Source of the DNA: Anaerotruncus rubiinfantis
GTDB lineage: Bacteria; Bacillota; Clostridia; Oscillospirales; Ruminococcaceae
Length of the DNA: 64,000 nucleotides
Direction: 5' to 3'
NCBI RefSeq assembly: GCF_900078395.1
Contig: NZ_FKLA01000009.1
Location: forward strand, 409,305-473,304
In this document: piece by piece, positions 52,969 through 64,000 of the stretch
Numbering within the stretch: the first letter of the stretch is position 1
How the letters are laid out: each line of letters opens with the position of its first letter
Made by a program: the position numbers and the translations under genes
Notes under the pieces: model-generated
What the model saw: only the letters and a program-made list of their open reading frames with translations
Database searches by the model: none
Told to the model about the DNA's origin: nothing

Positions 52969-53466
52969 ATGAAATATCTGAATTTCGCATTGGATATCCT
53001 TTTGAAAGCGGTTATGGCAGCCAGCACCGCCAGTGTCCTGATCGTTTCGTTTATACAGATTATTTCGCGCTTTGTTGCGCAGATGTCGATTGGCTGGAGC
53101 GCAGATGTTTTGCGCTTGTCCTTTATCTATGCAGTTTTCAGCGGCGCAGCATACTGCGCGAAAAAGAACGAACACATCAATCTGGATATTCTCCTTTCGC
53201 TACTGCCTGTACGCAAACGCATGATCTGTGAAACAGTGATCCTATCGGTCGTCACGGTTTTCTGCGCTGTCCTTACCAAATTTGGCTACGTCTATACTCT
53301 ATCGGGGCTTCGGCAGTCCGCGCCTTTTCTGCCAATTTCAATGGCAGTCTATTATGCGGCGCTTCCGCTTTGTACCGGTATTATGACCTTTTACTATCTG
53401 CAATTGATCATCAAAAACTTCTGCTACCTTTGTAAAAAGCAAGGAGGAGAAAGCGCATGTTTATGA
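52969..53466 (+). CDS. TRAP transporter small permease, DctQ family
   Basis: A 165-residue protein with four membrane segments. The family motif is SIGWSADVLRLSFIYAVFSG, followed by KNEHINLDILL. It overlaps the dctM gene by 10 bases. Confidence 0.9.
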   Translation: MKYLNFALDILLKAVMAASTASVLIVSFIQIISRFVAQMSIGWSADVLRLSFIYAVFSGAAYCAKKNEHINLDILLSLLPVRKRMICETVILSVVTVFCAVLTKFGYVYTLSGLRQSAPFLPISMAVYYAALPLCTGIMTFYYLQLIIKNFCYLCKKQGGESACL

Positions 53467-54725
53467 TCCTCATTCTGTTTATTGTCTTTTTCCTCGGACT
53501 GCCAATCGGCTTTGCGCTCGGAATTGTATCCACCGTGCAGATCGTTCAGATGGGCGTATCGATGAACATGGTCACCCAGCGGCTTTTTTCCGGGATCGAT
53601 AGCACCACATTGACTGCAGTTCTGCTCTTTACGCTGGCAGGGTCTCTGATGATGAAGGGCGGTATGTCCGACCGACTGATCAGCTTTGCTGACGCACTTG
53701 TGGGGCATTTGCCGAGCGGTATGGCAATGGTGAGCGTGCTGGCCTGTATGTTTTTCGCGGCGCTGACCGGCGCTGCGGTGGCTGCTGCCGCAGCAATCGG
53801 CGGAATCATGATTCCGGTCATGTTAGAAAAAGGCTATGATAAGGGATTTACCTCCTCGCTTCTGGCAACGGCCAGTTCGATTGGTCCGATTATTCCGCCG
53901 AGCATTCCCCTACTGATCTACGGAGTGATCGCAAGCTGTTCGGTGGCAAAGCTTTTCATTGGAGGGATCATCCCCGGTATCCTGATGGGGGTTTCCTTGA
54001 TGGCTGTTAGCTACTTTGTCGGAAAAAAAAGAGGTTATATCGGACGACCGAAGCGTGCGACGGCAAAAGAGATTTTCACAGCAGCTAAAAGTGCTGTTTT
54101 TGCGCTGCTCATTCCGGTAATTATTCTGGGCGGAATTATGTCCGGTATTTTTACTGCTACCGAATCCGCTTCTATTGCAGTGGTTTATGCTCTGCTCATC
54201 GGCATCTTTATCTACAAGACCCTGCCTTTACGTGAGATTCTCGCGTCGCTGATAGATGCCTCGAAAACCACCGGAATGGTGCTGCTGGTCGTCGGCTTTG
54301 CCTCTCTCTTCACTTGGGTGATCAGCATGCAGATGCTTCCCGCCCGGCTCACCGAACTTATGAGTTCAGTCATCCATTCAAAATATCTGTTCCTTCTGGT
54401 GGTCAATGTGATCTTGCTGATTGCAGGCACTTTCATCGATACGACCAGTGCAGTGCTGATCTTCTCGCCGCTCTTTTTGCCGATGGCGCAGAGTTTCGGG
54501 ATTGATCCAATCCATCTTGGTGTTGTAATTGCAGTAAATCTAAGTATCGGTATGTGCACCCCCCCACTCGGGGTCTGTCTGTTCGTCACCAGCGGAATCA
54601 CACAGCTCCCGCTCAAAGGGATGTTCCGGGATCTTATCCCACAGCTGGCCGCATTGGTGATCGTGCTGCTGATTATCACTTATTTCCCATGGACGGTTAC
54701 AGCGTTGCCGGCACTGGTTGCCTGA
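53457..54725 (+). CDS. TRAP transporter large permease, DctM family
   Basis: A 422-residue polytopic membrane protein. Landmarks are TLAGSLMMKGGMSDRLI, FAALTGAAVAAAAAIGG, PIIPPSIPLLIYGV, IFTATESASIAVVYA and GMCTPPLGVCLFV. ATG 53457 lies inside the end of dctQ after AAGGAGGAG. Confidence 0.93.
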   Translation: MFMILILFIVFFLGLPIGFALGIVSTVQIVQMGVSMNMVTQRLFSGIDSTTLTAVLLFTLAGSLMMKGGMSDRLISFADALVGHLPSGMAMVSVLACMFFAALTGAAVAAAAAIGGIMIPVMLEKGYDKGFTSSLLATASSIGPIIPPSIPLLIYGVIASCSVAKLFIGGIIPGILMGVSLMAVSYFVGKKRGYIGRPKRATAKEIFTAAKSAVFALLIPVIILGGIMSGIFTATESASIAVVYALLIGIFIYKTLPLREILASLIDASKTTGMVLLVVGFASLFTWVISMQMLPARLTELMSSVIHSKYLFLLVVNVILLIAGTFIDTTSAVLIFSPLFLPMAQSFGIDPIHLGVVIAVNLSIGMCTPPLGVCLFVTSGITQLPLKGMFRDLIPQLAALVIVLLIITYFPWTVTALPALVA

Positions 54726-54768
54726 TCTTCCACATCCGAAACGAAATCATGAAAAAGGAGCTCCAAAC

Positions 54769-55998
54769 ATGTCAATCCTCTTGAAAAATGCCAATCTTGT
54801 GGATGTCTGCAACAAGCAGACACTCCTGGGTTTCGACCTGTTCATCGATAAGAACAGGATTTGTAAAATTGGCCGTGAACTTCGCTGCGAAGCGGAGGAA
54901 ACCTATGATCTGGACGGCAGATGGGTGATGCCGGGGCTAATCAATATGCACGAGCATCAGTCCTATAAACGGCTGATCGGCCCGCTTTACGGCCCGAGCG
55001 GCGCCTGCACCAATCTGAAGGGCACCGATCTTGGAATTCGCGGTGTGCGTACCGCACTTTTCTCGCTCAAATGTGGGATTACAACCATCTGTGAGATGGG
55101 CTCCCTTTGCGGACTGAGCTATTCGATGCGCAGTGCGATTGAAAACGGGGTGATCCCTGGCCCCAGAATGTTTATTTCAGGACAGCACTTTACCACGACT
55201 GGCGGACATGCCTATGAGCTGGCCGCAGAGGTGGATACTCCGGAAGAGATGGTAAAGGCGGTACGCGGAACGATTAAACAGGGCGTCGACTGGATCAAGC
55301 TGCTCTGTTCCCATGAACCGGTTGTCGACGGCAATGATGGTCCCATCTGCGCGGAAATGAGCGAGGAACTGATTTCTGTAGCAGTTACCGAGGCACACGC
55401 GCGGCAGAAAAAAGTTGCCGTTCATGTGATGGGTGAGCTCGAACTCCAACGGGTGATCAATGCCGGCGTGGATGCCGTCCACCATGGGGCCTTTCTGACA
55501 CTTAAACAGGCTCGCCAGATGAAAGAAAAAGGCATAGCGTTCGTATCTACCATCAGCGCCTACCGAAACACATCGAGCCCCGCTTTTGAACGAGGGGAAC
55601 AGTGGGCAAGGGAAAATCTCATTTTACGCCCAGGCTTTGAATCGGCATTGAAAAATGCGATGCAGGCGGATGTGCTGATTGCCCCAGGCACCGATTCTCT
55701 TGGGGATTTGGTGGACGAACTGATTTTTATGCACCGTTTTGGCATGGGCCGAATGGAATGCCTGCGGTCGGCAACCCTGAATGGCGCACAAATTCTCGGG
55801 CAGGAGCAGTATCTTGGCAGTCTCACCGAAGGAAAGCTTGCCGATCTGGTCGTATTGGAGGCCGACCCCAGCGAGAATCTCGAAAACCTGCGCAGGGTTA
55901 TGTGGGTGATGAAAGATGGATTAATTTATCATTTGCCGAATCTCTCACTGGAACATATGAATCCTCGTTGGTTGCTTGAATCTGCGCCAATGGTATGA
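54769..55998 (+). CDS. Amidohydrolase-superfamily protein (imidazolonepropionase/dipeptidase-like)
   Basis: A 409-residue metal-dependent hydrolase. The first metal motif is MHEHQ in LINMHEHQ, near residue 66 (His-x-His pattern). Lys in DWIKLLCS could be the bridging carboxylated lysine. Further ligands are VHVMGE and VHHGAF, and the Asp of APGTDSL. The C-terminal EGKLADLVVLEADP is typical of the family. It hydrolyses an amide or ester of unknown identity. ATG 54769 has GGAG upstream. It closes the GntR/RraA/TRAP operon before a strong terminator, so the TRAP ligand may be an amide or ring-containing acid. Confidence 0.8.
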   Translation: MSILLKNANLVDVCNKQTLLGFDLFIDKNRICKIGRELRCEAEETYDLDGRWVMPGLINMHEHQSYKRLIGPLYGPSGACTNLKGTDLGIRGVRTALFSLKCGITTICEMGSLCGLSYSMRSAIENGVIPGPRMFISGQHFTTTGGHAYELAAEVDTPEEMVKAVRGTIKQGVDWIKLLCSHEPVVDGNDGPICAEMSEELISVAVTEAHARQKKVAVHVMGELELQRVINAGVDAVHHGAFLTLKQARQMKEKGIAFVSTISAYRNTSSPAFERGEQWARENLILRPGFESALKNAMQADVLIAPGTDSLGDLVDELIFMHRFGMGRMECLRSATLNGAQILGQEQYLGSLTEGKLADLVVLEADPSENLENLRRVMWVMKDGLIYHLPNLSLEHMNPRWLLESAPMV

Positions 55999-56054
55999 TA
56001 TACAGTTTATTGGACCCCGGCGCGGGGGTGGGATGACTTTTAGAGAAATCAGAT

Positions 56055-56092
56055 AAAGGACCGGTCAGGGAACGATCCCTGACCGGTCCTTT
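56055..56092. terminator. Bidirectional rho-independent terminator
   Basis: AAAGGACCGGTCAGGG pairs perfectly with CCCTGACCGGTCCTTT. It ends the amidohydrolase operon. The convergent hydrogenase-sensor operon ends 110 bases further on. Confidence 0.9.
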
Positions 56093-56203
56093 GTAGCTTC
56101 TAAAATTTTATGAATAAACACGACCATCCGCATCTCACTGAACAGATTTCGGGTGGATGCTTGCCCTGAAACCGATTTTTCAACCCACGGACTGCGCAGC
56201 GGC

Positions 56204-57376
56204 TCAGCACATGCTGAGTTTAACATTTTTACCCATATGGAGCAGACACTCCTGAATCTGTTTGATGATCCCCATTTTCGCGGGGAAACCGATTTCTGCA
56301 TCCAACCGCTCGTGGGCCTTGTTTTCCGCGCGCCCCACAAAAAGATTGATGTCGGTGGCCTCCTCGAAGAGCATCCGCGCGAGAAGCGACGCGCCGTCGG
56401 TCCGGTTCTTGATTTCAAAGGCCACCCGGGTTCCGGCGGTGTATTCCTGTGCGATTTCGAGCACTTTGCCAAGGGTGATGACCCCTTCGGTCACAAGGTC
56501 GATGCCTTTGATCGAAGCGGCCGCGGGGATCTCCTCGGTGCCGGTATCCGGCAGCGGAACAACCGGCGCGCGCAGATACCGGCTGGCCGCCTGTGCGGTG
56601 GTGCCGCCGCAGACAATATGCCGTCCCTCCTTTGAAAAGAACATGCGCATCACGCTTTCGTCATCCTCTCTATGCGCGGGCGGGCCGATGAGGACGTTGA
56701 CCGCCTGCCGTTTCCGCAGCTTGTAGACGATGATGGTGATGTCGTCGTCCGGCGAGCCAAGATCGAGATCCATGCAGGCTTCGGCCAATGTGGCGGCCAT
56801 CCGCTGTGGAGAGAGGTCCGGCGCGTAGCAGTCCTCCAGATGTTTGATAATATCTTCGCGCGGCCAGCCGTCGAGCATCGTTTTTCCGAGCCCCGCGTTG
56901 GTTACCCCATCCGAAAAAAGGATAAGAAAGTCTCCGGCTGCCAGCCGCAGGACGCTTTCGGAAATCTCCTTGCCGCCGATAATCCGGCGGCTGCGCTCGT
57001 AATCGAAGTTTTTCCCCGCGCGCAGCAGGATTGCGGGCGGGTTGTCAAACTGCGCGAGATAGGCTTCGGTACGGTTGTCATCCAGCTGCAGGATGGTAAA
57101 GGTCGAATAAGCCATTTTACGCACCTTGCAAACCGGGAGGGTGTCGGCCATGGTGCGGATACACTGGGAGATTGGCAGCTTGCGCGCCATCATCGTACTG
57201 AGGATTTTCGCGGTCAGCGTTGCGAGAATATTGGCTTTGACTCCGCTGCCAAGCCCATCCGAAAGTACGATGGTCGTACCGTTTTCTGTTTTGACAGTGG
57301 TATAAAAATCGCCACAGACCGGCTGGTCGTGTTTATTGATGCTGACATAGCCGCCCTCCATGAAGAGATCCTTCAT
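56204..57376 (-). CDS. SpoIIE-type (PP2C) protein phosphatase
   Basis: A 390-residue protein. The PP2C core is at residues about 1-225: VLSDGLGSGVKA, ILFSDGVTNAG and SPDDDITIIVYKL carry the metal-binding Asp residues. The remaining 160 residues are a separate, unnamed domain. It overlaps the sensory hydrogenase gene by four bases and is the third gene of that operon. SpoIIE/PP2C phosphatases next to PAS-containing [FeFe] hydrogenases are a known group C arrangement, thought to pass an H2 or redox signal to a serine-phosphorylated target. The target is unknown. Confidence 0.85.
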   Translation of the reverse strand: MKDLFMEGGYVSINKHDQPVCGDFYTTVKTENGTTIVLSDGLGSGVKANILATLTAKILSTMMARKLPISQCIRTMADTLPVCKVRKMAYSTFTILQLDDNRTEAYLAQFDNPPAILLRAGKNFDYERSRRIIGGKEISESVLRLAAGDFLILFSDGVTNAGLGKTMLDGWPREDIIKHLEDCYAPDLSPQRMAATLAEACMDLDLGSPDDDITIIVYKLRKRQAVNVLIGPPAHREDDESVMRMFFSKEGRHIVCGGTTAQAASRYLRAPVVPLPDTGTEEIPAAASIKGIDLVTEGVITLGKVLEIAQEYTAGTRVAFEIKNRTDGASLLARMLFEEATDINLFVGRAENKAHERLDAEIGFPAKMGIIKQIQECLLHMGKNVKLSMC

Positions 57377-59055
57377 TTTCTGTGCCCCTCCAGCAGAATT
57401 GCCTCCTTGAGGTCGGTCAGCGCCACTTGGGTCTCGGCGGCCGTTTCACCCAGCAGGGAAGCAATTTCATGAACGGTGCGCAGCTGCTTTTCAATGATCT
57501 CATCAGTAATGCGCGCGGCGCTCAGCTTGACGTCCATGATTTTTTCGTTTTCCAGTTCGGCTTCGGTGACATCCTTCATGATACAGATGCAGATTCCGAT
57601 GCCCTTATCGTACAGGAACTCCTGCTCCAGATATTTTTGATATTCGGGCAGGAAGACTTTCTGGGAAAAGCGCCCGCTTTCCGAAGTGATCGCCTTGACA
57701 AAGTCGAACTCGTTGAGAATGCGGGAAACCGGCGCGCCGATCAGCTCCTGTGGACGAAGCAGGCCGAAAACCGCTCCGGCCGCACGGTTGAGCTCCTGTA
57801 TGGTGAGATCGGTATTGACCGTGACAATTGCGCTTGGAACCGCGTCAATCACCTGGAGGGAGACCGACTCCGCGCGTTCCTTCATATAGGGCAGGCACAT
57901 GCTGATCTCTGCCCGGCCAAAATGAACCGCGGCCGCCTTTTCCCGGCAGGTAGCATATCCGCAGGTGCCGCAGTTGAGTTCGTCCTCCGGACGGTGCTTG
58001 CCCATCTTCTGGAGGATCGCGGTGATCTCCTGCTCGCTCGGCGGGATACAGATCACCTCCAGATCGGGGATGCTCTTTTCAAGCGCCGGGGAATCAGGCA
58101 GGTCGAAATCATCTGTCCGTCCGCCGCCGGCAAACGCCTCCACCCGGATACGCGAGGCGAGCGCCTCCTTTTTCCCGCCCGCGCAGGGCCCTCCGATACA
58201 GCTGCCGCTGCAGGCGCTCATCTCGACAAAACAATCGGAAAGACGGCCCTTTCCGATCTCTTCGAGCACCTCCATGCAGTTTTGCAGGCCGTCCACCGCA
58301 AGATAGTGGCAGCCGTTTTCCTGTTCCATGCTCTTCAGAATGCCGCCGCTTTCCGGGAAGAAACGGGAACGGCGCGGGGCGCTTTCTGCGGAAAGGGATG
58401 GAAAGGAGATCCCGCGCGCCTGCATCCAGTCGTTCAGCTCATCAAAAGTGAGCGCGTAATCCGCTCCGTCCGGGAATTGCTCGCATTCGTCCTTCTTGGA
58501 GATGCAGGGCCCGATGAATACGACCACCGCATCCGGGTCCTGCGTTTTCAGGAGTTTGGCGTGCGCCTGCATCGGAGAGAGAACCGGCGCGAGATGCCGC
58601 AAAGCCTTGGGAAAACGCGTTTGGATGAGCTTTACAACCGTCGGGCAGCAGGAAGAAATGAGCAGCTGACCGCGGCGTTCGCGCACAAGCTGTTCATAGC
58701 GGGACTTCACCAGATATGCCCCTTCGGCTGTCTCCCGCGCGCCGGCAAAGCCCAGCGCGCGCAGCGCCTGCGCAAAGGCGTCAAATCCGTCGACCGGATA
58801 GCTTGCGATAAAAGCGGGCGCTACGCTTGCAACGACGGTTTTGCCGCCTGCGATCGCGCTTTCGACCGCTTGGATATCGCTGCGCACCACCTTGGCCTGC
58901 TGTGGACATACCAGGATACAATTGCCGCAGTAGATACAATCCTGCAGGATGACCTGTGCCTGGTGGTTTTTCACTTCGATGGCCTTCACTGGACAGCCGC
59001 GGACGCATTTATAGCAATTTTTGCAGTTGGCTTTTTTCAGCTTCAGGATTTCCAT
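57373..59055 (-). CDS. Sensory [FeFe] hydrogenase-like protein (group C, HydS-like) with PAS domain
   Basis: A 560-residue protein. Domains in order: two N-terminal [4Fe-4S] ferredoxin motifs (CKNCYKCVRGC, CIYCGNCILVC); an H-cluster hydrogenase domain (SSCCP near 131, IGPCISKKDE, and MSACSGSCIGGPC) with all cluster-binding cysteines retained; an extra [4Fe-4S] motif CGTCGYATC near 380; a PAS domain (about 415-520); and a C-terminal helical tail. The motifs differ from the catalytic form (TSCCP, MPCTAKK, MACPGGC), as expected for group C sensory enzymes. It probably senses H2 or redox state and controls the SpoIIE phosphatase encoded next. It does not look like a bulk catalyst. Start ATG 59055, five bases after the mini-ferredoxin gene. 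Confidence 0.88.
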   Translation of the reverse strand: MEILKLKKANCKNCYKCVRGCPVKAIEVKNHQAQVILQDCIYCGNCILVCPQQAKVVRSDIQAVESAIAGGKTVVASVAPAFIASYPVDGFDAFAQALRALGFAGARETAEGAYLVKSRYEQLVRERRGQLLISSCCPTVVKLIQTRFPKALRHLAPVLSPMQAHAKLLKTQDPDAVVVFIGPCISKKDECEQFPDGADYALTFDELNDWMQARGISFPSLSAESAPRRSRFFPESGGILKSMEQENGCHYLAVDGLQNCMEVLEEIGKGRLSDCFVEMSACSGSCIGGPCAGGKKEALASRIRVEAFAGGGRTDDFDLPDSPALEKSIPDLEVICIPPSEQEITAILQKMGKHRPEDELNCGTCGYATCREKAAAVHFGRAEISMCLPYMKERAESVSLQVIDAVPSAIVTVNTDLTIQELNRAAGAVFGLLRPQELIGAPVSRILNEFDFVKAITSESGRFSQKVFLPEYQKYLEQEFLYDKGIGICICIMKDVTEAELENEKIMDVKLSAARITDEIIEKQLRTVHEIASLLGETAAETQVALTDLKEAILLEGHRK

Positions 59056-59060
59056 CTGGT

Positions 59061-59306
59061 TCAGCCCGCTTCCTTCAGAATGTGATTTTCAAAGACGCTT
59101 TCGGCGTTTTCGGGCGTGACGCCGGTGATGAGCCGGCCGTCCACCTGGATGCTGACGCCCTGGTCGCAATGTCCCAGGCAGATGCTTGACCCGAGCTGGA
59201 CGCGGTCCTCGAGATGATTTTGCCGGACCAGCTCGGCAAAACGTTCGCGGACGCGGTAGGAGCCGTTGACATGACAGGCGCTGCCAATACAGATTAGAAC
59301 TTTCAC
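59061..59306 (-). CDS. Thioredoxin-like [2Fe-2S] ferredoxin, copy 1
   Basis: An 81-residue single-domain protein. The [2Fe-2S] ligands are Cys6/Cys11 (CIGSAC) and Cys43/Cys47 (CLGHC), the CX4C...CX3C pattern of the thioredoxin-like ferredoxins related to HydC/NuoE. It is the first gene of the sensor operon and is a paralogue of the protein at 63705. It may deliver electrons to the sensory hydrogenase. Confidence 0.85.
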   Translation of the reverse strand: MKVLICIGSACHVNGSYRVRERFAELVRQNHLEDRVQLGSSICLGHCDQGVSIQVDGRLITGVTPENAESVFENHILKEAG

Positions 59307-59355
59307 AATGTAAACCTCCCGGCTGACAATTCAAAATTTGGTCAATATTGCTTTA

Positions 59356-59385
59356 AGTATACGACGAGTGTTAATTAATTGTCAA
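59356..59385 (-). promoter_or_regulatory. Sigma-A-type promoter of the sensor-hydrogenase operon
   Basis: On the minus strand TTGACA (59385-59380) and TATACT (59361-59356) are spaced by 18 bases, about 50 bases upstream of the first gene. The -35 box lies inside a Rex-like site (59368-59385). Confidence 0.75.
59368..59385. promoter_or_regulatory. Candidate Rex-binding site, sensor operon
   Basis: On the minus strand TTGACAATTAATTAACAC matches 11 of the 14 fixed positions of the clostridial Rex consensus TTGTTAANNNNTTAACAA. It overlaps the -35 region. Rex is an NADH-responsive repressor of fermentation and hydrogenase genes in Clostridia. Confidence 0.45.
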
Positions 59386-59501
59386 TCTCTGCGGGCCAGG
59401 AAAATCTGCAAAAACGGGGGGAATTAGCCATTGACCGATAAAACAGTTTTTTTGCCCAAAAAAGAAGGGAAAAATTCTACAATTAGTCCAACTAAAATGC
59501 C

Positions 59502-59530
59502 TTTCCAAAAGTTGTTGCCTATGGTATACT
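59502..59530 (+). promoter_or_regulatory. Promoter of the bifurcating-hydrogenase operon
   Basis: TTTCCA (59502-59507) and consensus-like TATACT (59525-59530) are spaced by 17 bases. Transcription would begin near 59537, just before a Rex-like site. Confidence 0.55.
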
Positions 59531-59544
59531 TAACTTGTTTTGGA

Positions 59545-59562
59545 TTGTTACAATTTTATCAA
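59545..59562. promoter_or_regulatory. Candidate Rex-binding site, HydABC operon
   Basis: TTGTTACAATTTTATCAA matches 12 of 14 fixed positions of TTGTTAANNNNTTAACAA. It lies about 8 bases downstream of the predicted start of transcription, a good position for repression. Confidence 0.5.
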
Positions 59563-59622
59563 TCTCCCCTCTGCCGATGCACCGTGGCGTGTGCGACGAA
59601 AACGTAAAGAAGGATGGTCCAT

Positions 59623-60111
59623 ATGGGAAACACAACCAATTTTGACAAGGCTGAAGAAATTCTTCAGGCGCATGGAAAAAAGGAATCCGCCCTGATTGCG
59701 ATCATGCAGGATATCCAGGCGGAATACCGCTATCTGCCGCCCGATATTCTCGAGTACATTGCAAAGGGGCTGGGCATCGGTGTGGCGAAGGTGTACAGCG
59801 TCGCCACCTTCTACGAGAATTTTTCGCTTGAACCAAAGGGCAAATACGTCATCCGCATCTGCGACGGCACCGCCTGCCATGTGCGCAAGTCGATTCCGAT
59901 CCTGGAAGCGCTGCGCAAGGAACTGGGCCTCTCGGATAAGAAACACACCACCGATGACCAGGTTTTTACGGTGGAAACCGTCTCCTGCCTGGGCGCCTGC
60001 GGGCTTGCGCCGGTTTTGACGGTGAACGACAAAGTTCATCCCGCCATGACGCCGGACAAAGCGCGGGAGCTGCTGAAAGAACTCAAAGAGGAGGACGCGG
60101 GAAATGCCTAA
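59623..60111 (+). CDS. hydC: Bifurcating [FeFe] hydrogenase, NuoE-like gamma subunit
   Basis: A 162-residue thioredoxin-fold [2Fe-2S] subunit. Four cluster ligands are readable in CDGTACHV and CLGACGLAP, and an N-terminal helical region (EEILQAHGKKESALIAIMQD) matches NuoE. It is the HydC subunit of the NAD- and ferredoxin-dependent hydrogenase. ATG 59623 is chosen because AAGAAGG lies nine bases upstream; an in-frame ATG at 59614 overlaps that site. The gene overlaps hydB by eight bases. Confidence 0.93.
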   Translation: MGNTTNFDKAEEILQAHGKKESALIAIMQDIQAEYRYLPPDILEYIAKGLGIGVAKVYSVATFYENFSLEPKGKYVIRICDGTACHVRKSIPILEALRKELGLSDKKHTTDDQVFTVETVSCLGACGLAPVLTVNDKVHPAMTPDKARELLKELKEEDAGNA

Positions 60112-61984
60112 GGTCAATACATACGCCGAGCTTTCTGAACTGCGCGGGTTTGCGCAGCGTTCGCTCGGCATGCAGAAAAAACAGGTGCTCATCTGTGCCG
60201 GTACCGGCTGCGTCGCGGGCGGTTCGCTGGTCATTTACGACCGGATCAAAAAAGCCTGTGAGGAGCGCGGGCTTGACGTCTGTGTCGAACTGCGCCACGA
60301 GCCCCACGGCGAAAATATCGGGCTCAAAAAGAGCGGCTGCCATGGATTCTGCGAGATGGGCCCGCTGCTGAAGATCGAGCCGCTGGACGTGCTCTACATC
60401 AAGGTGAAACCGGACGACTGTGAAGAGATCATCGAAAAATCGGTGATCGGCGACGAGGTGATCGACCGCCTGCTTTATAAGCTGGAAGGCAGGACCTATC
60501 CAAGTCAGCATGAGATCCCGTTTTATAAAAAACAGACCCGCCTCGTGCTGCATAACTGCGGACAGAACGACGCGGAGGACGTGCTCGAATACATCGCCAA
60601 AGGCGGCTATGAAGCTTTCGCAAAGGCGCTTTCCTCGATGACCGGCGAGGAGATCTGCAAGCAGATCTCCGAATCGAATCTGCGCGGCCGCGGCGGCGGC
60701 GGGTTCCCGACCGGCCGCAAATGGGAACAGGTGCGCCGCCAGAAGGAGCCTGTCAAATATGTCGTCTGCAACGGCGACGAAGGCGATCCGGGCGCTTTTA
60801 TGGACCGTTCGATCATGGAGGGCGACCCGCACAAGATGCTTGAGGGCATGATGATCGCGGGTTACGCGACCGGCGCACAGGAAGGCTACATCTACGTCCG
60901 CGCCGAATATCCGTTGGCGGTCAACCGCCTCAAAACCGCGATCCGAAAAGCCAAGGAACTCGGCCTGCTCGGGGAAAACATCCTGGGGTCCGGTTTCAGC
61001 TTCGAATTGCATATCAACCAGGGCGCGGGCGCGTTCGTCTGCGGCGAAGGAAGCGCGCTGACCGCTTCGATCGAGGGCAACCGCGGCATGCCGCGCGTCA
61101 AGCCCCCGCGCACAGTCGAACAGGGGCTTTTTGGAAAGCCAACCGTCCTTAACAATGTGGAAACCTTCGCCAACGTCCCGATGATTATCCTCAACGGGGC
61201 GGACTGGTTCAAATCGATCGGTCCCGAAAACAGCCCGGGCACCAAGGCGTTCGCCCTCACCGGCAATGTCAACAACACAGGGCTCATTGAGGTGCCGATG
61301 GGCACCACCCTGCGCGAGGTCATCTTTGATATCGGCGGCGGGGTCAAAAATGGCCGCGACTTCAAGGCGGTGCAGATCGGCGGGCCGTCCGGCGGCTGTC
61401 TCACGAAAGAACACCTCGACCTGCCGATGGATTTCGACTCGCTTAAAAAGGTCGGCGCGATGGTCGGCTCGGGCGGCCTGGTCGTCATGGATGACAAGAC
61501 CTGCATGGTCGAGGTTTCCCGGTTCTTCATGAATTTCACCCAGAACGAATCCTGCGGCAAATGTGTCCCCTGCCGCGAGGGTACCAAGCGGATGCTGGAA
61601 ATCCTCGAACGGATCGTTCACGGCAACGGCACGCCGGAGGATCTCGACCTGCTTGACGAGCTGGCCGAAACCATCTCCAAGACCGCACTGTGCGGGCTCG
61701 GAAAAACCGCGGCGTTCCCGGTGCAGTCTACGCTCAAATACTTCAAAGACGAGTATCTCGCCCATGTCGTCGACAAGCGCTGTCCCGCGGGCGACTGTCA
61801 GGCGCTGAAGGTCTATACGATCGATCCCGAAAAGTGCAAAGGCTGCAGCAAATGCGCGCGCGGCTGCCCGGTGAACGCGATTACCGGGAAGATCAAGGAA
61901 CCGTTCGTCATCGATCGGAACAAATGCATCAAATGCGGCGCCTGCGTGGATACCTGCCCGTTTGGGGCGATTAAGGAGGCTTAA
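60104..61984 (+). CDS. hydB: Bifurcating [FeFe] hydrogenase, NuoF-like beta subunit (NAD-binding)
   Basis: A 626-residue flavoprotein. An N-terminal thioredoxin-like [2Fe-2S] domain (CAGTGC, CHGFC) is followed by the FMN/NADH core with GRGGGGFPTG and GNGDEGDPG-like CNGDEGDPGAFMDRS. The [4Fe-4S] site is SCGKCVPCREG. Two ferredoxin motifs follow at the C-terminus: CKGCSKCARGC and CIKCGACVDTC. It exchanges electrons with NAD(H) in the heterotrimeric HydABC enzyme and probably hosts the bifurcation centre. It starts inside the end of hydC. Confidence 0.95.
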   Translation: MPKVNTYAELSELRGFAQRSLGMQKKQVLICAGTGCVAGGSLVIYDRIKKACEERGLDVCVELRHEPHGENIGLKKSGCHGFCEMGPLLKIEPLDVLYIKVKPDDCEEIIEKSVIGDEVIDRLLYKLEGRTYPSQHEIPFYKKQTRLVLHNCGQNDAEDVLEYIAKGGYEAFAKALSSMTGEEICKQISESNLRGRGGGGFPTGRKWEQVRRQKEPVKYVVCNGDEGDPGAFMDRSIMEGDPHKMLEGMMIAGYATGAQEGYIYVRAEYPLAVNRLKTAIRKAKELGLLGENILGSGFSFELHINQGAGAFVCGEGSALTASIEGNRGMPRVKPPRTVEQGLFGKPTVLNNVETFANVPMIILNGADWFKSIGPENSPGTKAFALTGNVNNTGLIEVPMGTTLREVIFDIGGGVKNGRDFKAVQIGGPSGGCLTKEHLDLPMDFDSLKKVGAMVGSGGLVVMDDKTCMVEVSRFFMNFTQNESCGKCVPCREGTKRMLEILERIVHGNGTPEDLDLLDELAETISKTALCGLGKTAAFPVQSTLKYFKDEYLAHVVDKRCPAGDCQALKVYTIDPEKCKGCSKCARGCPVNAITGKIKEPFVIDRNKCIKCGACVDTCPFGAIKEA

Positions 61985-61986
61985 CC

Positions 61987-63693
61987 ATGAGCAAAGGAAT
62001 CATGTATATCGACGGCAAGCGGGTCGCCTTTGACGGGGAGAAAAACGTATTGGCAGTTATCCGCAAGGCGGGGATCGAAATCCCGACCTTCTGCTATTAT
62101 TCGGAACTTTCGGTTTACGGCGCCTGCCGGATGTGTGTTGTGGAGAACGAATGGGGCGGCGTGGAGGCATCCTGTTCGATGCAGCCGCGGGACGGCATGA
62201 AAATCCGGACCAACACCGCCAAGCTTCAAAAACACCGTAAAATGATCCTCGAGCTGCTGCTCGCGGCCCACTGCCGGGATTGCACCGTCTGCGAAAAGAA
62301 CGGTAAATGCAAACTGCAGGAGCTTTCGCTTCAGTACGGTATCCGCCGCATCCGCTTTGAAGATACCCGTGAGAAAATGGAGCTCGACCGTTCGAGCAAA
62401 TCCATCCTGCGCGATCCGAATAAATGCATCCTCTGCGGCGACTGTGTGCGCATGTGCAGCGAGGTGCAGGGGATGGGCGTCATAGATTTTGCCCACCGCG
62501 GCTCCAATCTGCGGATCATGCCTGCGTTCGGGCGTGAAATTGGGGAAACCGACTGTGTGGGCTGCGGCCAGTGCGCGGCGGTTTGTCCGACCGGCGCCAT
62601 CACGATCAAGGGCGACATTGGCCGCGCCTGGAAGGCGATCCAGGACCCGGAGAAGCGGGTCGTCGTGCAGATCGCGCCCGCGGTGCGCGTTGCAATCGGA
62701 GAAGAATTCGGCCTCGCGCCGGGTGAAAATGTCATGGGCAAACTGGTCGCGGCGCTCAAGCTGATGGGTGTGGACTATGTCTTTGATACCACCCTCGGCG
62801 CGGACCTTACAGTCATGGAGGAGGCCAGCGAATTCCTCAAGCGGATCGAAACGGGCGGCCCGTTCCCAATGTTCACCTCCTGCTGCCCGGCGTGGGTGCG
62901 CTACGTCGAGAAACGCAAACCGGAATATCTCACAAACATCTCCTCCTGCAAATCCCCGATGGAGATGTTCGGCGCGGTGCTCAAAGAGCACTATAAATCG
63001 ATGCAGGCTGTCGACGGCAAGGAAACGGTGGTCATTGCGATCATGCCCTGCACCGCCAAAAAATCCGAAGCCGCCCGCAGCGAATTTGTCCGGGCGGGCC
63101 TTGTGGATGTCGACTATGTGCTGACCACCCAGGAGGTCAGCACGATGATCAAAGAAAATGGCATCGTCTTTGACGAAATTGAAAGCGAGTCCCCGGATAT
63201 GCCGTTCGGGCTTGGCAGTGGAGCGGGCGTTATCTTTGGCGCCACCGGCGGCGTGGCCGAGGCGGTCATCCGCCGCTGCGCCGAACAAAAGGATTCCAAT
63301 ACCCTGCGGGAAATTGAATTTTGCGGCGTGCGCGGCATGGAGGCTGTCAAGGAGGCCGCAATTACAGTCGATGGCCAGGAGATTAAGATCGCCGTTGTAA
63401 ACGGGCTTGGAAAAGCACAGGAACTCATCGGGAAGATCGAAAGCGGGGAAGCCTCCTATCACCTGGTGGAAGTTATGGCGTGTCCGGGCGGATGCATCGG
63501 CGGCGCCGGGCAGCCGCTTGGCTTTACAAAACAGCGCGAGGAGCGCGCGAAGGGCATTTACAGTGTTGACCAGCAGTCCCAGATCAAGCGTTCGGAGGAA
63601 AATCCGATGATCATGGCGCTCTATAACGGGGTGCTGCGCAAAAACCGGCACGAACTGCTCCACGTCCACTATCAGGGTGGATCGGAAGAATAG
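61987..63693 (+). CDS. hydA: Bifurcating [FeFe] hydrogenase, catalytic alpha subunit (group A3)
   Basis: A 568-residue hydrogenase. N-terminal [2Fe-2S] domain (CYYSELSVYGACRMC), a His-ligated [4Fe-4S] site (HCRDCTVCEKNGKC), two ferredoxin motifs (CILCGDCVRMC, CVGCGQCAAVC) and the H-cluster domain. The three H-cluster signatures are FTSCCPAW, MPCTAKKSE and EVMACPGGCIGG. It reduces protons to H2 with electrons from ferredoxin and NADH. The length resembles other HydABC alpha subunits that lack the extra C-terminal [2Fe-2S] domain. It starts two bases after hydB. Confidence 0.96.
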   Translation: MSKGIMYIDGKRVAFDGEKNVLAVIRKAGIEIPTFCYYSELSVYGACRMCVVENEWGGVEASCSMQPRDGMKIRTNTAKLQKHRKMILELLLAAHCRDCTVCEKNGKCKLQELSLQYGIRRIRFEDTREKMELDRSSKSILRDPNKCILCGDCVRMCSEVQGMGVIDFAHRGSNLRIMPAFGREIGETDCVGCGQCAAVCPTGAITIKGDIGRAWKAIQDPEKRVVVQIAPAVRVAIGEEFGLAPGENVMGKLVAALKLMGVDYVFDTTLGADLTVMEEASEFLKRIETGGPFPMFTSCCPAWVRYVEKRKPEYLTNISSCKSPMEMFGAVLKEHYKSMQAVDGKETVVIAIMPCTAKKSEAARSEFVRAGLVDVDYVLTTQEVSTMIKENGIVFDEIESESPDMPFGLGSGAGVIFGATGGVAEAVIRRCAEQKDSNTLREIEFCGVRGMEAVKEAAITVDGQEIKIAVVNGLGKAQELIGKIESGEASYHLVEVMACPGGCIGGAGQPLGFTKQREERAKGIYSVDQQSQIKRSEENPMIMALYNGVLRKNRHELLHVHYQGGSEE

Positions 63694-63704
63694 GAGGAAG
63701 CCAA

Positions 63705-63959
63705 ATGCGCGTATTGGAAGTGTGTGTGGGAAGCGCCTGCTACTTGAAAGGCTCTTACAATGTGATCAGTGACTTGCAGGAGCTGGTTTCGGATCATGAT
63801 CTGGCTGAACAGATTGAGATCAAAGCCGCGTTCTGTTTTGGAAACTGCGCGGGAGCCGTATCCGCGAAGTTTGAGGACGAGGATCAGGTGCTGAGCGTGG
63901 ATCCCAAGCAGGTGAAGCGCTTCTTTGACAACGAGGTGCTGCCTCGCCTGCAGGCATAA
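63705..63959 (+). CDS. Thioredoxin-like [2Fe-2S] ferredoxin, copy 2
   Basis: An 84-residue protein with CVGSAC and CFGNC (CX4C...CX3C) ligands, paralogous to the first gene of the divergent sensor operon (59061). It closes the HydABC operon, after AGGAGG. It may be a small electron carrier for the hydrogenase or for the sensor. Confidence 0.85.
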   Translation: MRVLEVCVGSACYLKGSYNVISDLQELVSDHDLAEQIEIKAAFCFGNCAGAVSAKFEDEDQVLSVDPKQVKRFFDNEVLPRLQA

Positions 63960-63963
63960 AACA

Positions 63964-63993
63964 AAACCCCGGTCACATGTGACCGGGGTTTTT
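63964..63993 (+). terminator. Rho-independent terminator of the HydABC operon
   Basis: AAAACCCCGGTCAC pairs with GTGACCGGGGTTTT around a short loop, with T after the stem. Confidence 0.92.
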
Positions 63994-64000
63994 CTATAGG

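Follow-up and report, generated by a model that had tools for sequence, protein, structure and literature searches.

Operons in which a putatively sensory [FeFe] hydrogenase is followed by a phosphatase have been described before, and the locus that we analyzed, in a 64,000-nucleotide stretch of the Anaerotruncus rubiinfantis genome (contig NZ_FKLA01000009.1, positions 409,305 to 473,304; hereafter the window), belongs to this known type. It consists of two operons diverging from a shared 307-base gap. One encodes a small thioredoxin-like [2Fe-2S] protein (fdxS), a sensory-type hydrogenase (HydS) and a PP2C phosphatase; the other encodes the hydrogenase HydABC and a second small [2Fe-2S] protein (fdxH). 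In hfsABC(D) of Thermoanaerobacterium saccharolyticum, similarly, HfsA and the PAS hydrogenase HfsB are followed by the serine-phosphatase-like HfsC, with a predicted Rex site ahead. Unlike hfsABCD, the window has no HfsD (HydA2) beside HydS; instead, its opposite strand encodes HydABC and a further small protein. Two of our comparison loci (L177 and L182) combine a small [2Fe-2S] protein, HydS, phosphatase and HydA2 with exactly the 18-base site printed for hfsABCD; this layout and the identical site suggest that HfsA is probably a small [2Fe-2S] protein.

The HydDB class C3, "Phosphatase-linked (putative)" [FeFe] hydrogenases (PMC5037454), has the same domain make-up and neighbouring phosphatase as the window, and we saw no difference of kind. 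The position beside HydABC is not new either. A 2012 survey lists PAS-type sensors beside HydABC of some clades and, in Thermotoga maritima, the sensory genes TM1420-TM1422 with the bifurcating TM1424-TM1426 (PMC3561251); a [2Fe-2S] protein is encoded in the sensory/bifurcating hydrogenase operon of the same organism (Pan et al. 2003). However, T. maritima HydA carries a fused [2Fe-2S] domain, whereas the window HydA is unfused, a free protein is encoded behind it and the operons are divergent. In Ruminococcus albus, a putative H2-sensing hydrogenase also lies beside a regulated hydrogenase (hydS-hydA2; Zheng et al. 2014, cited in PMC5707799 and PMC11837493), but the partner there is hydA2 rather than HydABC. 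An earlier note on this DNA, made without database searches, had itself mentioned that group C hydrogenases with phosphatases were already described.

Our analysis adds a conserved HydS tail, an enrichment of Rex-like operators upstream of sensor operons and an association between C3 sensors and those HydA subunits that carry a fused A5-type [2Fe-2S] domain. The reading that we favour, with about even confidence, is that the locus serves redox control in a fermenting gut bacterium: HydS would signal to the phosphatase, and the phosphatase would act on the H2/ethanol branch. H2 pressure decides between H2, acetate and ethanol in gut and biofuel clostridia, and deleting the hfs sensor already lifts ethanol yield in thermophiles.

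Conserved linkage, the HydS tail and the phosphatase

All seven genes were confirmed by the list of open reading frames (ORFs) and by family profiles. HydS and the phosphatase are 99% and 100% identical, respectively, to database proteins that bear the name of A. rubiinfantis. The minus-strand operon runs from fdxS (59061..59306, 81 aa, GTG start) through HydS (57373..59055) to the SpoIIE-type PP2C phosphatase (56204..57376, 390 aa; PF07228, 84.9 bits), with 5 bases between fdxS and HydS and a 4-base overlap between HydS and the phosphatase gene. The plus-strand operon (59614-63959) is tightly packed in the order HydC, HydB, HydA, fdxH. The earlier note had the gene content and families of both operons right, but the span that it gave, 59061-63959, omits HydS and the phosphatase, as the sensor operon reaches 56204; its HydABC is present in the order C-B-A.

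To see how constant this layout is, we surveyed 120 loci, 80 from contigs and 40 picked from 139 genomes with a match; two near-copies were dropped, leaving 118, and each count was taken only over loci with enough sequence, hence the differing denominators. The phosphatase adjoins and follows HydS in 107/107 loci, and a small [2Fe-2S] gene precedes HydS in 103/111, so the layout is not due to chance. In 32/107 loci two small [2Fe-2S] genes stand in tandem. As an observation on these tandem pairs (L015, L018, L029 and others), nine sampled HydS-proximal copies form one clade (100/99), indicating that the two copies have distinct identities.

A second constant feature is the C-terminal tail of HydS (residues 516-552; 57400..57510, minus strand), which is strongly conserved in phosphatase-linked HydS and belongs to a predicted helical hairpin (helices 497-532 and 537-555) behind the PAS-like sheet. 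A profile of the tail matches 120/121 HydS of the close set, the single miss probably being L129, where HydS is cut short. Since loci L001-L080 were fetched partly by the tail motif, their matches are circular and count for nothing; L111-L150 and L171-L190 are independent. In 20 phylum-wide loci, selected by hand from 119 listed C3-type matches, the profile matches 19 of 21 HydS; it misses those of L188 and L189, whose tails diverge and whose phosphatase matches are weak. By contrast, it matches none (0/20) of the group C hydrogenases of other architecture that we sampled (L151-L170, from 31 listed), and no phosphatase gene of the HydS-linked kind was found in those loci. The natural reading of this co-occurrence is that the tail is a putative phosphatase-contact element, by analogy with RsbU-type PP2C phosphatases, which are switched by helical linkers.

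On the phosphatase side, residues ~1-223 form a PP2C part of the SpoIIE kind, with the PP2C fold and the metal-binding acidic residues present. The remainder, ~residues 224-390 (56204-56707, ~165 residues), is a conserved C-terminal domain that carries no annotation: in a 50-row alignment with one row cut, 29 columns are at least 90% conserved, including GPP, CGGT and DLVTEG motifs. No Pfam family scored above its cut-off on this domain, a PDB profile search with it gave only matches at E 0.054 and 1.3, and in a fold search with the phosphatase the match lists were taken up by the PP2C part, none placing the C-terminal domain.

These observations bear on the simplest alternative, namely, that HydS works in electron transfer like any ordinary hydrogenase, the phosphatase being co-transcribed only incidentally. 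The cluster ligands and Cys136 of HydS, which are kept, would agree with it. Yet the invariable adjacency of the phosphatase, the 4-base gene overlap in the window and the specificity of the tail for phosphatase-linked HydS all speak against it, as does the raised hydrogenase activity upon hfsB deletion (PMC5707799), and we regard this explanation as highly improbable.

Motifs and placement of HydS

HydS combines two N-terminal [4Fe-4S] sites, an H-cluster domain (PF02906), a Cx2Cx4Cx16C motif, a PAS-like part and the C-terminal hairpin. As the earlier note had stated, it keeps its cluster cysteines and has altered H-cluster motifs. All eight cluster cysteines of the N-terminal ferredoxin part are kept, the H-cluster cysteines are C137, C184, C282 and C286, and the Cx2Cx4Cx16C motif (C362, C365, C370 and C387; PF04060, 37.4 bits against a cut-off of 23) lies ahead of the PAS-like part. 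The H-cluster loops deviate from the catalytic pattern at Gly182 and Ser280, sensory-type second-sphere residues whose counterparts in CpI we take to be Met353 and Met497. Among C3 relatives, Gly occupies the first position in 146/153 and Ser the second in 91/153 proteins. TmHydS has Gly and Ser at the positions of CpI Met353 and Met497 (PMC8163306).

The PAS models stay below their cut-offs on HydS (PF00989, 22.3 versus 22.6; PAS_9, PAS_4 and PAS_8 likewise), many relatives carry PAS in precomputed Pfam, and the predicted structure has a five-stranded PAS-like sheet at residues 409-495. The structural model (pLDDT 79.1, pTM 0.60) matches solved [FeFe] hydrogenases in its H-domain, with a best E of 2e-16.

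In a 70-row tree, HydS falls into a 12-row set made up otherwise entirely of phosphatase-linked C3 proteins (SH-aLRT 99), within a 35-row group C set (99). The 22 C3 rows do not form a clade by themselves (3 changes), as fused ones nest among them. The window HydA groups in the same tree with HydA of HydABC (SH-aLRT 100). HydS thus lies with group C3, in agreement with the HydDB layout, and not among catalytic group A enzymes, the placement that the earlier note had named as telling against its group C-like assignment. Taken together, motifs, tree and gene order support HydS as a phosphatase-linked (C3) group C hydrogenase of putatively sensory type.

Promoter-like sequences and Rex-like operators

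The gap between the operons holds a 24-base element twice (the copies are 71% alike), each copy enclosing an 18-base Rex-like palindrome with 2 mismatches. The first palindrome (59368..59385) overlaps the -35 of a promoter-like sequence directed toward fdxS and the sensor operon (TTGACA-18-TATACT, 11/12; 59356..59385, minus strand). The second (59545..59562) lies just downstream of the -10 of a promoter-like sequence directed toward hydCBA (TTTCCA-17-TATACT, 9/12; 59502..59530, plus strand). These sites are putative Rex operators. A Rex site has been predicted before hfsABCD of T. saccharolyticum (PMC5886521), and our results therefore extend a known prediction: upstream of sensor operons, a Rex-like site occurs in 57/138 regions versus 7.85 expected in first-order random sequence, and at one mismatch the figures are 22 versus 0.75, in a set to which the window itself and a few near-duplicates belong. 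Among pieces drawn at random from these loci, 54/918 contain such a site.

HydABC and the small [2Fe-2S] proteins

The plus-strand operon encodes a NuoE-like HydC (59614..60111, 165 aa; PF01257, 172 bits), a NuoF-like HydB with a C-terminal [4Fe-4S] pair (60104..61984, 626 aa; PF01512, PF10589, Fer4 at 572-624) and a group A catalytic subunit, HydA (61987..63693, 568 aa), that is, the full set of HydABC in one operon. HydA passes the cut-off of TIGR02512 (475 bits) and stays below that of NF040763, the NADH-dependent group A6 model (721.6 versus 765 bits); we therefore call the enzyme HydABC-type and do not assign it to NF040763. HydA has no fused C-terminal [2Fe-2S] (A5-type) domain. Directly behind it lies fdxH (63705..63959, plus strand, 84 aa), which has four cysteines in a Cx4C...Cx3C pattern, as does fdxS. 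At the PF01257 cut-off of 24.8 bits, fdxS passes (34.6) and fdxH does not (22.8). The best PDB match of fdxS is the C-terminal HydA domain of T. maritima HydABC (7p5h_A 572-636, E 4.5e-9). The two proteins are, as the earlier note had it, paralogs distributed one per operon, and the same pattern of one [2Fe-2S] module per hydrogenase is seen in L126, L198 and L204. The electron link between the two hydrogenases that the earlier note proposed for these proteins would be a further possibility.

In the cryo-EM structure of T. maritima HydABC, no electron partner lies within 30 Angstrom of cluster A5, which the other characterised enzymes lack; the authors therefore suggested that A5 may not be crucial for bifurcation (PMC9499530). 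This locus hints at a purpose for such a puzzling extra module. We drew 398 genomes of the phylum and scored two or three candidates per genome, so that the following counts hold among the matches listed: 150 HydA, of which 70 reach into the fused domain and 80 do not. A C3 HydS is listed within 8 kb of 37/70 fused but only 6/80 unfused HydA (Fisher p 5e-10, relatedness ignored). For group C hydrogenases of other architecture, the listed matches give the reverse, 0/70 fused versus 8/80 unfused. Seventeen genomes have a listed fused HydA, an unfused HydA and a C3 HydS; there, the fused HydA is the one near the sensor in 12, the unfused one in 0 and neither in 5. Furthermore, three fused HydA with no listed sensor (G488, G702 and G527) do have an adjacent one when the locus is read. 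Four others (L205, L206, L208 and L210) have no sensor in the stretch read, which weighs against a tie between A5 and the sensor; these belong to loci L191-L210, picked partly by HydA type and hence a biased sample. One of them, L208, has a 156-residue phosphatase-like ORF.

The exceptions on the other side are informative too. A free small [2Fe-2S] gene is found close to each of the six unfused HydA that have a sensor nearby, although in 5/6 of these loci it precedes HydS and may be a HydS partner. The window HydA falls, in a HydA tree of 45 rows, within the fused-domain clade (25 rows, 100/100), in a five-row subclade that lacks the domain (100/100). (Four short or duplicate rows, L151:1237, L153, L185 and L207, are left out of this tree; L163, which lies at the edge of its stretch, was scored as lacking the domain.) In three of the five subclade members (the window, L126 and L191), a free small protein is encoded directly behind hydA; it is absent in L061, where the contig ends 332 bases past HydA, and in L067. 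L166, of the same HydA clade and without the fused domain, has as its neighbour a group C hydrogenase of other architecture, a single case that points the same way as the A5-sensor tie. We considered whether fdxH is simply a split-off HydA domain. However, a tree of the small proteins, built on 85 columns with low resolution and an unsettled bootstrap, joins fdxS and fdxH to the free small proteins (40 rows, 99/94), which stand next to the fused HydA domains and not inside their group; this fits better with replacement by a free relative.

A tentative explanation, possible but one that we would not rely upon, is that the A5-type module is a plug tying HydABC to the HydS sensor-phosphatase: either HydS would sense directly how loaded with electrons HydABC is, or the HydS system would control HydABC. 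The window would then be a natural split version, with a free plug behind HydA and its sister copy on HydS. Our literature search, which left subscription papers mostly outside, found no paper stating such a tie; since the 2012 survey already lists sensors beside HydABC (PMC3561251), what we add is the link to the [2Fe-2S] module. Because the A5-like protein is a separate gene here, it could be removed without touching HydA. The tail, the recurrent Rex-like operators and the A5-sensor link each make the question of the HydS partner experimentally short.

Genes that accompany the sensor operon in relatives

HydABC is outnumbered as a neighbour in close relatives: a HydA2-type hydrogenase is found near the sensor operon in 44/64 loci and HydABC in 3/64. 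HydA2 is divergent from the sensor operon in 11/84 loci, a window-like arrangement with another hydrogenase. The tie of sensor to HydABC does recur, being present near C3 HydS in 6/20 phylum-wide loci (L176, L179, L181, L185, L188 and L189). The nearest analogues of the window are L126, with Rex upstream of fdxS-HydS-phosphatase-HydC-HydB-HydA-fdxH, and L191, with Rex-AdhE-HydS-phosphatase-HydC-HydB-HydA-fdxH. On the strand opposite HydS, on the divergent side near HydA2, five loci (L131, L138, L139, L140 and L141) encode a Cys-containing protein of ~104 residues; the one in L138 weakly resembles the small [2Fe-2S] family (19.8 bits).

Upstream of the sensor operon, an APH-type kinase-like gene occurs in 27/93 and AdhE in 18/77 loci; Rex is a neighbour in 14/77, and L015 and L021 share the order Rex-AdhE-APH-fdx-fdx-HydS-phosphatase-HydA2. 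In L015, the APH-type gene (L015:6939-7688) lies between AdhE and the small [2Fe-2S] genes; its product (PF01636, 54 bits versus a cut-off of 23.2) is a candidate partner of the phosphatase. These neighbours raise the alternative that the phosphatase serves the ethanol branch, where an APH-type kinase and the phosphatase would together set the phosphorylation of AdhE or a regulator, with HydABC just sharing the Rex-controlled promoter region. The Rex-AdhE pair ahead of HydS in L191, so similar to the window, fits this idea, as does the observation that hfsB deletion raises NADH-ADH but not NADH-ALDH activity (PMC5707799). On the other hand, phmmer searches of the window ORFs with APH-type kinase, AdhE, Rex, LysR and HydA2 turned up no additional gene at 35 bits, HydA2 accompanies the sensor more often than either AdhE or the kinase-like gene does, and the ethanologen phenotype of T. 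thermosaccharolyticum requires hfsD and hydAB, not hfsC (PMC11837493). Overall, we consider this alternative rather unlikely, if not to be neglected.

A possible signalling path and the hfs genetics

In the redox-control reading that we favour, HydABC would make H2 from NADH and ferredoxin, and HydS, probably with fdxS as a second subunit, would read H2 or the redox state of ferredoxin. The signal would pass through the PAS-like part and the C-terminal hairpin to the phosphatase, a conformational change being likelier here than electron transfer. The substrate of the phosphatase would be a serine or threonine residue in some component of the H2/ethanol branch. HydABC is our first guess for this target, as catalytic hydrogenases are the commonest neighbours and HydABC is the only one here; AdhE is the second. 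Rex, responding to NADH/NAD+, probably tunes transcription of both operons through the two gap operators.

Published genetics bears on this path. In T. saccharolyticum, deletion of hfsA or hfsB raises ethanol yield ~1.8-fold along with NADH-ADH activity (PMC5707799), and the hfs studies together show that the sensor restrains ethanol formation and that the catalytic hydrogenase HfsD is needed for high yield. Nevertheless, they do not fit a simple sensor-to-phosphatase chain, and several results, theirs and ours, weigh against our reading. Strains without hfsC and/or hfsD remain at the wild-type level, so that losing hfsC does not have the effect of losing hfsB (PMC5707799). Loss of hfsA lowers hfsB-D transcripts two- to six-fold (PMC5707799), and its phenotype may therefore be indirect. 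T. thermosaccharolyticum without hfsABCD turns ethanologen when hfsD alone is returned (PMC11837493), a phenotype that thus does not depend on the phosphatase. H2 does not reduce the C-terminal [4Fe-4S] cluster of TamHydS, a group D protein without PAS (PMC13104023). As to HydS itself, Cys136, at the proton-transfer position, is kept in the window protein and in 111/153 C3 proteins, and slow turnover thus cannot be assumed. No kinase partner for the phosphatase was found among the window ORFs with the APH-type query at 35 bits. Finally, the whole 64-kb window has 4 Rex-like matches versus 1.74 expected, a number reached by 12/100 shuffles; what is unusual is not their number but the place of two of them in the gap.

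The same genetics suggests another alternative, in which HydS would hold back its partner hydrogenase, by binding or electron draining, either directly or by way of the [2Fe-2S] proteins, and the phosphatase would be a side arm. The raised hydrogenase activity after hfsB deletion, not mimicked by hfsC deletion (PMC5707799), and the ethanologen state restored by hfsD in the absence of hfsC (PMC11837493) would be expected under it, and [2Fe-2S] modules do accompany both hydrogenases. However, the constant adjacency of the phosphatase and a tail that goes with it argue for joint work of HydS and the phosphatase, and we think direct restraint unlikely to be the main mechanism.

Flanking features and other observations

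A terminator-like hairpin of 17 pairs behind the phosphatase gene (56055..56092, minus strand) is likely the end of the sensor operon. Another lies behind fdxH (63963..63992); the scan lists it on the minus strand, but the structure is symmetric and is followed by T on the plus strand. An Rfam scan of 55000-64000 gave no match at the gathering score, and PADLOC gave none for the phosphatase and HydS. Beyond the phosphatase terminator, at 52969-55998, the ORFs appear by eye to encode two TRAP-transporter-like membrane proteins and an amidohydrolase-like protein.

Among the group C hydrogenases of other architecture, two (L154:8231-10477 and L165:7768-9993) are fusions with a sigma-54 activator (PF00158) bearing a Fis-type HTH; ten more (L153, L155-L158, L160, L161, L164, L166 and L170) were judged to be of this type by their C-terminal residues alone. 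A single literature search turned up no description of such fusions, and they fall outside the HydDB classes C1-C3 (PMC5037454). Their domain composition suggests that they may possibly represent one-protein, H2-responsive transcription activators.

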